The notes below the pieces were generated by a model. That model saw only the letters and a program-made list of their open reading frames with translations. It searched no databases and was not told where the DNA came from. A program made the translations under genes and the position numbers. 64,000 bases of DNA from Mycobacterium basiliense (lineage in GTDB: Bacteria > Actinomycetota > Actinomycetes > Mycobacteriales > Mycobacteriaceae). Shown here in pieces: positions 14,328 to 23,699 of this stretch (position 1 is its first letter; each line of letters begins with the position of its first letter). The stretch spans positions 1,550,001 through 1,614,000 of the forward strand of contig NZ_LR130759.1 of NCBI RefSeq assembly GCF_900292015.1. Reading direction: 5' to 3'.

Positions 14328-15239
14328 ATGAGCGCAGGGCTGTTCGGACTCCTGGACGACGTCGCGGCACTGGCGCGGCTGGCCGCGGCATCGGTCGACG
14401 ACATCGGTTCGGCCGCCGGCCGAGCGACCGCCAAGGCGGCCGGAGTGGTCATCGACGACACCGCGGTAACGCCACAATTCGTGCGCGGCATCACCGCCGA
14501 GCGCGAGTTGCCCATCATCGAACGCATTGCGTGCGGATCGCTGCGCAACAAGCTCGTGTTCATCCTGCCCGGCGCGATGCTGCTCAGTCAGTTCGCGCCA
14601 TGGCTGCTGAGCCCAATCTTGATGCTCGGCGCTACCTATCTGTGCTACGAAGGCGCGGAGAAGCTGTGGGACGCCATCGCCGGACATGGGCCCGGCGTTG
14701 TGCGGCCGCAAGCCGAACAGCAGGTTGTCACCGGGGCTATCCGCACGGACTTCATCCTGTCGGCCGAGATCATGGTGATCGCCCTCAGCGAGGTGGTCGA
14801 CGTGGCTTTCCTGCCCCGGCTGGTCGTTCTCATCGTGGTCGCGCTGGTGATCACCGCTGCGGTCTACGGGGTCGTGGCCGCGATCGTCAAGATGGACGAT
14901 GTCGGGCTGCGGCTCGCCCAGACGTCGTCCCGGTTGGGGCGGAAGCTGGGCCGCGCACTGGTCGCCGGGATGCCCGGCTTGCTGTCCGCTATCTCAGCGG
15001 TGGGAACCGTGGCGATGCTCTGGGTGGGTGGCCACATCCTGTTGGTGGGCAGCGATCAGGTCGGCTGGCATACCCCCTACAGCATGGTTCATCATCTCGA
15101 GGAGCTGGTGCGCCACGCTGTCGGCTCTGGCGGGGCAGTGTTGGCCTGGCTGGTCAACACCGGCGTATCGGCGGTGCTTGGCGCGGTAGTTGGTGTGGCG
15201 CTCGTCGCGTGCGTGCGTCTATTGTCGTTGCGCCGGTGA
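14328..15239 (+). CDS. DUF808 inner-membrane protein (Rv3092c-like)
   Basis: A 303-residue multi-pass membrane protein of the DUF808/YedI family. The N-terminal signature is SAGLFGLLDDVAALARLAAA, followed by VVIDDTAVTPQFVRG and RELPIIERIACGSLRNKL. Membrane segments follow at about residues 75-105, 150-185, 215-245 and 270-300. The function of the family is unknown. The ATG at 14328 has a GGGGGAGAGGCG site. It is divergent from the sulfatase gene and convergent with the MazG-like gene, whose 3' end overlaps its own by 21 bp. It marks the left border of the accessory cytokinin-like locus. Confidence 0.85.
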   Translation: MSAGLFGLLDDVAALARLAAASVDDIGSAAGRATAKAAGVVIDDTAVTPQFVRGITAERELPIIERIACGSLRNKLVFILPGAMLLSQFAPWLLSPILMLGATYLCYEGAEKLWDAIAGHGPGVVRPQAEQQVVTGAIRTDFILSAEIMVIALSEVVDVAFLPRLVVLIVVALVITAAVYGVVAAIVKMDDVGLRLAQTSSRLGRKLGRALVAGMPGLLSAISAVGTVAMLWVGGHILLVGSDQVGWHTPYSMVHHLEELVRHAVGSGGAVLAWLVNTGVSAVLGAVVGVALVACVRLLSLRR

Positions 15240-16238
15240 TGGTCCTGCGCCGCCGCGCTCTTCATCTCGACCGTGCTCGCTTGGATGGTCGGCGGTGTCG
15301 CCGGGTCCGGCACCGGCGGACGGCCAGAAAGCCCGCCACTCTTGCTCGGTGATCGCGCCAAGCGGAGTCCGTCCTTGGGTGTCATCGGGTCGGTGGCGGC
15401 TGGCGTTGATGGCCCCCTCGATACGGCGGACCGTATCCATGAACTCCAAAACCGCGGTGCGCAGCTGGCTTTCCGCATCGACGTCGGGTGACATCACGAT
15501 GGAGGTGATCGTGGCCGGGATCAAGTCCATGGGCAGGCCGGCTCGACCGGCTCGTTCAATCACCTTCTGCGCTAGAGCTAATGCGGGTTGATGGTGAAAT
15601 AGGCCCTGCATCACCGAGCTTCGCGGCTTTTCTGCGGTCTTGCCTTTCACCCACTGACCTAGCTGTTCTTCGAATGAGAGCGATTCACCAGCGAGGACGC
15701 CCGCGCGCCGGTTGCCCAGCTTCCGCATCAGCGCGTCGGCGACGTCGTCGATGGTGAATGGCGGTCGTAGGGAGTCCTCGGCAATCCGAGCATGAAACAG
15801 CACGTGCAGTAGGAGGTTGGCGAGCTCTTCGCGCATCTGGTCTGAATCGCCGCTGCTTATGGCATCCAGCAGTGCATAGGTCTCCGTCAGCAGATAGCGG
15901 CGAAACGAGTCGTTGGTCTGCTCTGCCTCCCACCGGCCCGCTGTGCGCAGTTGGTCAATCACCGCAACTGCGTTGAGAAGCCGCTGACCGCAGCGCGGGT
16001 GTGGCGCCGAGATCAGCCGGTCCCCGGCGGCCAGCCGAGCGGTAACCGCGGGATGTGTGGGATCGGACGACAACAACACGGTAGCGTCGTTCCCAGAGTG
16101 GACGGGGCGCCCCGCGGGTAGCAGCCGAGCCACGGCGGCCGGCAATTCCTCGGTGTACTGCACTTCGTCGCGCAACAGTTTGATGGCTTCCATCGGCACC
16201 AGTGAAGGGTGACGTGGATCGACCAGGACGACAGTCAT
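15219..16238 (-). CDS. MazG-like protein with altered metal site
   Basis: From the ATG at 16238 the product is 339 residues and aligns along its whole length with mycobacterial MazG as I recall it (VVLVDPRHPSLVP start, then EVQYTEELP, LLSSDPTHPAV, RLISAPHPRCG, and a PLGAITEQEWRAFWP end). MazG is a nucleoside-triphosphate pyrophosphohydrolase that binds Mg2+ through an ExxE...ExxD set. Here the first motif reads TETYALLDAI (second Glu now Ala) and the second EELANLLLHV (Asp now Asn), so two of four ligands are changed. The linker before QPALALAQKV is also unusual. It is the last gene of the minus-strand block. It could be an inactive copy, a binding protein, or an enzyme with a shifted mechanism. 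Confidence 0.8.
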   Translation of the reverse strand: MTVVLVDPRHPSLVPMEAIKLLRDEVQYTEELPAAVARLLPAGRPVHSGNDATVLLSSDPTHPAVTARLAAGDRLISAPHPRCGQRLLNAVAVIDQLRTAGRWEAEQTNDSFRRYLLTETYALLDAISSGDSDQMREELANLLLHVLFHARIAEDSLRPPFTIDDVADALMRKLGNRRAGVLAGESLSFEEQLGQWVKGKTAEKPRSSVMQGLFHHQPALALAQKVIERAGRAGLPMDLIPATITSIVMSPDVDAESQLRTAVLEFMDTVRRIEGAINASRHRPDDTQGRTPLGAITEQEWRAFWPSAGAGPGDTADHPSEHGRDEERGGAGPSPAQRQ

Positions 16239-16483
16239 CGCGCACCTGGTTTCGGGCTCGACGGTGACATGGCAGTGGTTATACCAATCTCGATACGGGG
16301 TCTTGCCGAGGGCGTCATGCAAACCGGCGCGGTTACCTTGCCTGCTAGACAGCGCGCGAGCGAACCCGATTGATCCCGGTTTCGCTTGCGACCATTGATC
16401 GGGTTCCGGACGTTGACGTCACAGACCGGCTGCCGCAAACCCGGGGGGCGGCAGCGGCCGGGTTAAACCCGCGTGGGGAACCG

Positions 16484-21900: not shown

Positions 21901-22109
21901 GTCGATCACCCTCCTTGTTTGAAAACGCAACTTGCCCATCGCTTCTCAGCTCGCGGAGAACTTGATCCGACATTGACATCCGATGGTCGCCAGCTGTGGT
22001 CTTGGATCTGGTTACCGTCGATTGCGGCGCCACGAAAACCGGGGATGCGGGAGTGGCCGCCGGCGCGGGTGCGGTAGGCGCAGGTCGTTTCATTGGTCCG
22101 TCCGGGTCC

Positions 22110-23699
22110 CTAGCGGGAAACGGGATCGGGATGCCTACAGGAACTAGCGGGTTCGGGCTGCGGCGGGGTGATGCGGGGTAGGCCGAGCCCTACGCCGCGA
22201 GTTGTCGGAGTCTGGCCACGTTCCGCGGCATCACCTGCTTGGGTCCGGCGATGCTGCAGCAGTGGTCCGTCTGCGATCAGATGGTGTGGTGCGGCGCCGG
22301 TGATTTCGACATTCACCACATCGCCGGGCCGCACCGAACCGTCGGCTTGATCCGGGCGGAAGTGGACCAGTCGGCCGTCGCGGGCGCGCCCGCTGATTCG
22401 CGAGGTGGCGGCGTTCTTGCGGCCTTCGCCGGCAACGACCAACAGCTCCTGCCGGGTTCCGATCAGGGCTCGGTTGCCCTCGAGTGAGATTCGCTCTTGC
22501 AGCGCTACCAGCCGTTCGAAGCGTTGCTGGACGACGTCCTTGGGAATCTGGTCGGGCATGTCCGCCGCGGGTGTTCCTGGCCGGGGCGAGTATTGGAAGG
22601 TGAACGCACTGGTGAACCGCGCTTGTGCCACCAGGTCGAGGGTTTGCTCGAAGTCATCTTCGGATTCGCCCGGAAATCCAACGATGATGTCGGTGGTGAT
22701 GGCCGCATCCGGTATCGCGGCGCGGACCTTGTCGATGATGCCGAGGTAGCGATCGCGTCGGTAGGAGCGGCGCATCGCTTTGAGGATTCGGTCGGAGCCC
22801 GATTGCAGGGGCATATGCAAATGCGGGCACACGGCGGGCGTCTCGGCCATCGCCGTGATGACATCGTCAGTGAATTCGGCCGGGTGCGGTGAGGTGAACC
22901 TGATTCGTTCAAGACCCTCAATGCGGCCGCAAGCACGTAGCAGCTGCGCGAACGCACCGCGGTCCCGCGGTAGGGGCTCTTGACCCGGCGAGGGGTCCAG
23001 GTCGGTGAAGTTGACGCCGTAAGAGTTGACGTTTTGGCCGAGCAAGGTTATTTCCAACACGCCTTGGTCCACCAAAGCCTGCACTTCGGCGAGGATGTCG
23101 CCTGGGCGGCGGTCGGCCTCCTTGCCCCGAAGCGACGGCACAATGCAAAAGGTGCAGCTGTTGTTGCACCCGACCGAGATTGACACCCATGCGGCATAGG
23201 CAGAATCCCGCGTCGCTGGAAGGGCTGAGGGGAATGTCTGCAGTGATTCGAGAATCTCGACCTGCGCGTCTTGGTTGTGTCGCGAGCGTTCCAACAGGAC
23301 TGGCAGCGAACCGATGTTGTGTGTGCCGAAAACAACGTCCACCCAGGGCGCCCGGTCGAGCACGATATTGCGGTCCTTCTGCGCCAGACATCCGCCGACC
23401 GCGATTTGCATGCCCGGCCGACTCGCCTTGATGGGGGCAAGATGCGCGAGCGAACCGTAAAGCTTGTTGTCGGCGTTCTCACGCACCGCGCAGGTGTTGA
23501 AGACCACCAGATCCGCGGGCGCGCCCGGTTCGGCTTTGATGTAGCCCGCGTCTTCGAGCAACCCCGCCATGCGCTCGGAGTCGTGAGAATTCATCAGACA
23601 TCCGAAGGTGCGCACCTCGTAGGTGCGGGCGGTCGGGTTGTCGTCCGGCCCGCCTGCACCCATATTCGGTTGCGCGGGTACAACGTGGTCTCGAGTCAC
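22110..23699 (-). CDS. MiaB-type radical SAM methylthiotransferase (probable paralogue)
   Basis: 529 residues from the GTG at 23699 (VTRDHVVP), preceded by GGAGG; a later ATG (MGAGG) is possible. The three cluster cysteines lie in TFGCLMNSHDSER, VFNTCAVREN and VGGCLAQKD. The radical SAM triad is in VGCNNSCTFCIVPS. A TRAM domain (LVVAGEGRKN to AAPHHLIADGPL) ends the conserved part, followed by a Pro-rich tail of about 50 residues. MiaB adds a 2-methylthio group to i6A37 in tRNA. All cysteines are intact, so it should be active. The context (first gene of a block with LOG, P450 and MiaA-type genes) suggests a second copy dedicated to methylthiolated cytokinins. Confidence 0.9.
   Translation of the reverse strand: MTRDHVVPAQPNMGAGGPDDNPTARTYEVRTFGCLMNSHDSERMAGLLEDAGYIKAEPGAPADLVVFNTCAVRENADNKLYGSLAHLAPIKASRPGMQIAVGGCLAQKDRNIVLDRAPWVDVVFGTHNIGSLPVLLERSRHNQDAQVEILESLQTFPSALPATRDSAYAAWVSISVGCNNSCTFCIVPSLRGKEADRRPGDILAEVQALVDQGVLEITLLGQNVNSYGVNFTDLDPSPGQEPLPRDRGAFAQLLRACGRIEGLERIRFTSPHPAEFTDDVITAMAETPAVCPHLHMPLQSGSDRILKAMRRSYRRDRYLGIIDKVRAAIPDAAITTDIIVGFPGESEDDFEQTLDLVAQARFTSAFTFQYSPRPGTPAADMPDQIPKDVVQQRFERLVALQERISLEGNRALIGTRQELLVVAGEGRKNAATSRISGRARDGRLVHFRPDQADGSVRPGDVVNVEITGAAPHHLIADGPLLQHRRTQAGDAAERGQTPTTRGVGLGLPRITPPQPEPASSCRHPDPVSR

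Follow-up and report, generated by a model that had tools for sequence, protein, structure and literature searches.

A mycobacterial gene cluster that may make modified prenyl-adenines on a leader RNA of tandem anticodon stem-loop mimics

The fas locus of Rhodococcus fascians, together with the genes for MT1 and MT2 (plasmid pFiD188; L044), brings IPP (isopentenyl pyrophosphate)-type methyltransferases, a cytochrome P450, and a LOG-type gene into one cluster. The same kinds of genes are clustered in a 64,000-nucleotide stretch of Mycobacterium basiliense (referred to here as the window; positions 1550001 to 1614000 of the 5,607,630-base contig NZ_LR130759.1; genome 100% complete), where seven minus-strand genes lie in the order miaB2, MT (methyltransferase), P450, SnoaL, LOG, miaA2, and mazG2, preceded by a leader with a tandem array of hairpins that resemble tRNA anticodon stem-loops. 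Whereas the fas locus contains an adenylate isopentenyltransferase (IPT) together with FasB, FasC, and FasE, the window contains proteins of the MiaA and MiaB types, a SnoaL protein, a MazG protein, and the hairpin array. We propose, with a probability of roughly 0.55, that this conserved operon makes modified prenyl-adenines on the array RNA, which would serve as a dedicated and disposable substrate.

Other described systems share further parts with the locus. The tRNA-dependent cytokinin route, in the passages of the literature that outline it, employs the same enzyme types (MiaA, MiaB, and LOG) in the same order of steps; the window differs in that the copies are clustered second copies and, as we infer, in that a dedicated RNA replaces tRNA. 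M. tuberculosis reportedly produces cytokinins through the LOG Rv1205. This is, as here, a mycobacterial LOG-type enzyme, whereas the window LOG is a second copy whose N terminus is MiaB-like. GPP (geranyl pyrophosphate) 2-C-methyltransferase (GPPMT) and the Streptomyces IPP methyltransferase have the family and fold of GPPMT in common with the window MT, but MT scores under the GPPMT cut-off and falls in a separate clade, the comparison having been made with GPPMT. Synthetic 17-nt anticodon stem-loops, described in a review as substrates of Escherichia coli MiaA, display the same A36-A37-A38 stem-loop as the array; the array, in contrast, is naturally encoded, tandem, and located ahead of miaB2. 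A search of the open-licence literature (subscription papers mostly being outside its scope) found no publication on this cluster or on such hairpin-array RNA.

The array occupies positions 23852 to 24379 (minus strand) and was resolved by Tandem Repeats Finder as 7.4 copies of a 71-nt unit with a 98% match. Arrays were detected by the same program at the same place in the two other genomes in which the cluster was compared, i.e., G268 (probably M. marinum-type, given a LOG start identical to that of P0122 from M. marinum) and G798 (M. vicinigordonae; locus stretch L101). On the operon strand, the window unit comprises two hairpins, CCCCC-CUCAAAA-GGGGG and CCUUC-CUCAAAA-GAAGG. All 15 window hairpins (the first 17-nt core at 24356-24372 and the last at 23859-23875) have five of five stem pairs and the 7-nt loop CUCAAAA on the sense strand, as do the stems of 7 of the 11 units in G268 (one including a G-U pair) and 15 of the 23 units in M. 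vicinigordonae with respect to full pairing. The antisense strand of the three leader regions yielded zero such hairpins.

Numbered as in tRNA, the loops are C32 U33 N34 N35 A36 A37 A38. Across the 13 distinct units, columns 32, 33, 36, 37, and 38 are invariant and columns 34 and 35 are variable, the "anticodons" being CAA in the window, CAA and one UAA in G268, and GAA and one CCA in M. vicinigordonae. According to a passage of a review, MiaA substrates share A36-A37-A38, and synthetic 17-nt stem-loops have been used in kinetics (PMC8234997). By sequence, 15/15 window units have the 5-bp stem, 7-nt loop, and A36-A37-A38 of a minimal MiaA substrate, and the array loops, so judged, are the anticodon stem-loop that MiaA requires (U33, A36-A37-A38). 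The operon's own MiaA-type prenyltransferase (miaA2; 16484 to 17428, minus strand) scored 225 bits against TIGR00174 (cut-off, 149). It retains T19, K23, Y47, K56, H67, R167, R170, and R217 and carries two conservative replacements, T24 to Ser and K280 to Arg, both of which are also present in housekeeping mycobacterial MiaA (numbering counted on 2zm5, which we take to be the E. coli MiaA entry). The DMAPP (dimethylallyl pyrophosphate)- and tRNA-binding residues were those listed in a section of the same review (PMC8234997). Because the loops and stems follow the substrate rule and these residues are kept, the leader appears to encode the minimal substrate of the operon's own enzyme in tandem.

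The stems differ between the three genomes, with compensation, and an outer stem and a 2x2 internal loop are common to all 13 distinct 29-nt units. Across nine stem pairs, 90.6% of 117 cells were paired (shuffled mean, 82.6), 9 cells were changed on both sides (shuffled mean, 2.6), and the covariation score was 0.275; 0/500 shuffles reached any of these values, although the array units are not independent events because units of the same genome are related copies. Shifting the stem partner lowered all covariation measures. The window leader had a fold z-score of -5.1 (0/100 shuffles as low), and its seven CCUUC/GAAGG units hold the 5-bp stem and 7-nt loop in the predicted fold.

A 14-nt core picked from the arrays, CCCTSAAAAGGRGG, has 8, 10, and 14 occurrences in the three genomes; all 32 matches lie within the arrays in the operon sense, and the reversed control gave 0. 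In the rest of the window (2 x 63.4 kb), neither strand contains a hairpin with five of five pairs, U33, and A36-A38; L101 contains one chance hairpin outside its array, within miaB2 on the opposite strand. Shuffling the array 1,000 times produced at most one hairpin of this kind. A looser two-unit pattern was found in 5/396 genus genomes (14 matches in the window genome, 10 in G268, 21 in M. vicinigordonae, 4 in G801, and 1 in G807), while its reversed control matched 11 places in 10/396 genomes (maximum, 2 per genome), so that a single match is at chance level. The looser pattern thus picks out each of the three known cluster carriers plus one further repeat. That repeat, in G801 (L125, ~9810-10090), is a 17-bp minisatellite with six hairpins bearing the loop CUCAAAA (one with 5/5 and five with 4/5 pairs), and no cluster protein was found in the 19.9 kb around it (a stretch with 300 masked bases). 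The G807 match is one motif pair, with no hairpin, on an 8.6-kb contig. By judgement, we set both G801 and G807 aside as lying outside this system; repeats in two viral contigs were discarded as unrelated. The array pattern had no match in plasmids, and Rfam gave no match at E values up to 1 for positions 23600 to 24800 on both strands. When the window and 43 loci were scanned for tRNAs of the N6-isopentenyladenosine (i6A) type, the tRNAs recovered were a tRNA-Ala in the window and three others.

Upstream of the window array lies a promoter-like site, TTGTGC-N18-TACAGT (24419 to 24448, minus strand). Such sites start 76, 77, and 111 nt ahead of the first hairpin in the three genomes, all being matches to a relaxed pattern without a background estimate. 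Between the array and miaB2, a 13-bp hairpin (23791 to 23820, minus strand) is predicted from sequence and fold, and a 12-bp hairpin stands at a like place in G268; the 13-bp hairpin is possibly a processing site or a terminator.

An earlier note on this DNA, made from the sequence alone, had placed seven minus-strand genes between 15219 and 23699 and tentatively assigned them to a dedicated pathway for modified prenyladenines. Domain and family scans, together with the sequence, bear out the positions and families of all seven genes, as well as the claimed GTGA overlaps at the P450/SnoaL and SnoaL/LOG junctions. The genes of that interval are thus real, but the interval stops short of the array and omits an isomerase remnant (17776 to 18195; described below). 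Likely gene starts were picked from ribosome-binding sequences and comparison with relatives, giving 23699 for miaB2, 21900 (TTG) for MT, 19615 for SnoaL, 19157 for LOG, and 17428 for miaA2.

The MiaB-type methylthiotransferase (miaB2; 22110 to 23699, minus strand) scored 462.8 bits against TIGR01574 (cut-off, 355) and has the UPF0004 cysteines and the radical S-adenosylmethionine motif CxxxCxxC. For its TRAM domain (PF01938), no match was reported in the window MiaB2; the match was under the cut-off in M. vicinigordonae (16.2 of 21), as it also was in the housekeeping MiaB of the window genome (12 of 21). The C-methyltransferase of IPP/GPP type (MT; 21031 to 21900, minus strand) matched the GPPMT structures 4f84 (6e-39) and 3vc1 (3e-37) and shows 32% identity to R. 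fascians MT1/MT2. Its best NCBIfam match was GPP 2-C-methyltransferase (NF041943; 173.9 bits, below the cut-off of 400), and its clade is separate from both GPPMT and MT1/MT2 in a tree computed without row P0024, in which long branches meet. MT is, on this sequence comparison, a different member with a related fold. A review describes R. fascians MT1 and MT2 as methyltransferases of IPP for which DMAPP is not an efficient substrate (PMC10881772).

The cytochrome P450 (19612 to 20847, minus strand; PF00067) is 32% identical to FasA over 309 residues. The adjoining SnoaL/NTF2-fold protein (19154 to 19615, minus strand; PF13577 [SnoaL_4]) has a predicted structure (predicted local distance difference test [pLDDT], 89) whose best PDB match was 5bka and whose structurally closest proteins are ActVI-ORFA, Caci_6494, and Aln2; it may work after the P450. 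The LOG-type phosphoribohydrolase (18360 to 19157, minus strand) scored 176 bits against TIGR00730 (cut-off, 96) and 243 of 300 bits, i.e., under the cut-off, against the narrower NF058542, and it has the PGGxGTxEE motif. A review passage gives action on nucleotide monophosphates as the described step of this family (PMC8234997). Last in the window is the MazG nucleotide pyrophosphohydrolase (mazG2; 15219 to 16322, minus strand; NF008987, 502 bits; cut-off, 375).

The N-terminal ~50 residues of the window LOG, which precede its LOG domain, are similar to the beginning of MiaB2, and the two genes are identical over the first 13 nt from the start codon. When the N termini of three LOG and three MiaB proteins were compared, 8/9 comparisons scored above all 1,000 shuffles and the remaining one was reached by 1/1,000; the strongest was that of G268 (92 versus a shuffle maximum of 50). 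Among 19 aligned LOG relatives, the extension is present in P0122, P0124, P0125, and partly in P0123, and is absent from 14 others; P0127 (the M. vicinigordonae LOG) is annotated from a start downstream of that of the extension-bearing L101 frame. AlphaFold predicts the extension as a strand and a helix with low to moderate confidence. A remark cited in PMC6016246 describes expression of an M. marinum log gene in late granulomas; as it does not specify which log gene, we give it no weight here.

Between LOG and miaA2, M. vicinigordonae carries an intact type I IPP isomerase gene (L101, 12172-12792; NF002995, 245.5 bits with a cut-off of 127; TIGR02150, 144 with a cut-off of 106). In the window, the corresponding place holds a degenerate remnant (17776 to 18195, minus strand), which matches part of NF002995 below the cut-off (2e-13) and shows 46% similarity to the intact gene over 129 amino acids. 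The window genome has no match above the NF002995 cut-off (three below it), the search having covered isomerases of this type, and G268 has no isomerase between LOG and miaA2, which are ~0.17 kb apart. A route from methylated IPP to MiaA would presumably require an isomerase of this kind in the cluster. The M. vicinigordonae cluster also contains a 203-amino-acid open reading frame (ORF) on the opposite strand (L101:11458-12069, minus), with no Pfam family above the cut-off.

The earlier note had suggested searching the genome for further miaA, miaB, mazG, and LOG genes and comparing the cluster proteins with housekeeping orthologues in trees. Second copies of all four were found elsewhere in the window genome: MiaA at 2040783 (+), MiaB at 2031577 (+), LOG at 4248367 (-; plus a weak third PF03641 match), and MazG at 4487575 (-; 61% identical to mazG2 over 21-342). 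Among 80 genomes (48 of the same genus), the window genome was the only one with two MiaB matches above the family cut-off; the second match of G040 was far under it, and G003 was without any match. Trees were built with 12 outgroup rows and, for MiaA, without row myc55 (a partial hit). The three cluster MiaA proteins form one clade (100/99) nested among the genus's housekeeping MiaA; the enclosing clade of 11 rows (100/99) includes the housekeeping copies of the window genome and G268. The three cluster MiaB proteins group together (100/100) next to the full set of 18 housekeeping rows (99/96). On these placements, cluster MiaA and MiaB have unlike histories and are not housekeeping orthologues; a cluster of mere housekeeping genes is rejected, since MiaA, MiaB, LOG, and MazG are all second copies and MiaA and MiaB form clades of their own. 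Ratios of nonsynonymous to synonymous substitution (dN/dS; NG86) were 0.08 to 0.34 in 21 comparisons (seven genes in three genome pairings), those with M. vicinigordonae being rough because dS exceeded 1 in 13/14 of its pairings. The combination of tRNA-type enzymes, a prenyl-type methyltransferase, a P450, and LOG in a conserved cluster fits a dedicated modified-prenyladenine pathway. This part of the earlier proposal gains from the extra MiaA and MiaB copies; the first step is not fas-like, FasD having no match in the window at an E value of 1e-3.

The order miaB2-MT-P450-SnoaL-LOG-miaA2 is constant in 3/3 genomes. An MT orthologue was present in 2/297 genus genomes, those of the window and G268 (78%), the next best match being at 9e-15. 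SnoaL matches at E values up to 1e-25 occurred in 6/396 genus genomes of a later sample, i.e., the three cluster carriers and three genomes at 45-48% identity; the latter showed no other cluster protein in the stretches examined, two of which lie ~2 kb from a contig end. P0242 is a SnoaL match from M. shottsii. MT, SnoaL, and LOG also seem to occur together on each of two metagenome contigs of 5,859 and 5,519 bases (P0003/P0124/P0244 and P0004/P0123/P0243, respectively). A plasmid-borne system was rejected after an MT search of plasmids returned 34 records, none from Mycobacterium (records nearest the window genome may be excluded from that set). A common actinobacterial system was likewise rejected: MT relatives (E values up to 1e-40) occurred in 7/396 phylum genomes, the window genome included, and the other six had no further cluster protein in the 20 kb around the match. 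A scan of 392 genomes of the genus of G351 at an E value of 1e-70, run without a positive control, gave no match, and a genome contig scan gave two weak loci only (31% and 49% over short segments).

If every part is to be accounted for, the simplest interpretation is a dedicated precursor RNA that is modified at A37 and then consumed. The leader array would be transcribed and fold into 11 to 23 stem-loops. MT would methylate IPP, and the isomerase (in the M. vicinigordonae cluster; decayed in the window) would convert the product to methylated DMAPP, with which MiaA2 would prenylate A37 in each loop. MiaB2 would then add the 2-methylthio group, and the P450, perhaps with the SnoaL protein, would oxidise the side chain. 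After degradation of the array RNA to nucleotides, with MazG2 cleaning up triphosphates, LOG would free the base as a cytokinin-like molecule. For the specific scheme in which products are built on the leader RNA, each mimic offering one A37 for prenylation with a C6 prenyl group, methylthiolation, and oxidation before the RNA is shredded and LOG releases the bases, we judge the odds to be about even.

Several observations weigh against this scheme. The whole cluster was examined in three genomes only. Four of the 11 G268 units and 8 of the 23 M. vicinigordonae units have only four of five stem pairs, the predicted fold puts 7/8 CCCCC/GGGGG window units in a 4-nt-loop register, and two of the five covariation measures, the counts of both-side-changed pairs and of pair types, were matched in 19 and 14 of the 500 shuffles, respectively. 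A strict promoter scan of the window found no site. LOG and miaA2 are 0.9 kb apart in the window. Membership of MazG2 is weaker because its gene, last in the window and in G268, lies upstream of the array and divergent in M. vicinigordonae, i.e., beyond the array and in opposite orientation. The G801 minisatellite shows that such a repeat is possible without the cluster nearby.

The main rival, which we hold to be unlikely, is that the array is an autoregulatory leader, with MiaA2 or MiaB2 binding the hairpins and sensing enzyme, prenyl donor, or hypomodified tRNA to control the operon, cellular tRNA being the productive substrate. The array does lie between a promoter-like site and miaB2, and the 12- to 13-bp hairpin that follows it in two genomes (those of the window and G268) might serve to terminate or process the transcript. 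However, 11 to 23 similar copies are more than a sensor would seem to need, loop variation confined to positions 34 and 35 is substrate-like, and the rival leaves LOG, MT, and the P450 unexplained. Less probable still is a tRNA-derived cytokinin pathway in which MiaA2 and MiaB2 put a methylated prenyl group on ordinary tRNAs, LOG collects the breakdown products, and the array is an unrelated minisatellite. Both enzymes keep their tRNA-type domains, methylthiolation belongs, according to a review, to the route by which tRNA breakdown gives 2-methylthio cytokinins (PMC7680852), and G801 offers a minisatellite with similar loops and no cluster nearby; yet the array loop fits the MiaA rule, its stems are compensated, it occupies the same place in three genomes, and its core is found nowhere else in them.

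A fas-like pathway on free nucleotides, with MiaA2 switched to AMP, appears very improbable. Counterparts of MT, P450, and LOG do stand beside fas4/fasD on pFiD188 (Fas names other than fas4 being assigned here, by assumption, from gene order on the plasmid). In tblastn searches of the window with eight Fas/MT proteins (E value, 1e-3), however, only FasF, FasA, MT1, and MT2 matched; FasD, FasB, FasC, and FasE did not, so that a fas-type operon is not what the window holds, and MiaA2 keeps its tRNA-binding residues except K280R. That the array encodes a repetitive protein is scarcely credible and was rejected, since the M. vicinigordonae array has 9-10 stops per sense frame in 884 nt and the stems show compensatory changes, although 2/3 sense frames are open across the array in the window and G268 and the third has one stop.

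The window and G268 clusters lie at the same chromosomal place, with an ORF (window 10206-11681) on one side and a short-chain dehydrogenase/reductase (SDR) gene and a TetR gene on the other. A DUF808 gene (window 14232-15239) flanks the cluster on the left in the window and on the right in G268; in the window, a sulfatase gene (11807-) separates it from the left neighbour. Glycine-rich genes that we take to be PE_PGRS-like stand on either side of the region (window 8427-10058 and 29901-31592).

Even under the regulatory rival, natural tandem mimics of a MiaA substrate would be a new kind of RNA element. If the array RNA is indeed a dedicated, consumed precursor, RNA would act as a consumable scaffold for small molecules, with the number of product sites written as leader repeats, and the duplication of tRNA-type enzymes into a biosynthetic cluster would be explained. 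The system would parallel ribosomal-peptide natural products at the level of RNA, the tailoring being done by tRNA-modification enzymes. Mycobacteria would also have a source dedicated to modified cytokinin-like adenines, and the purpose of mycobacterial cytokinins would become directly testable.

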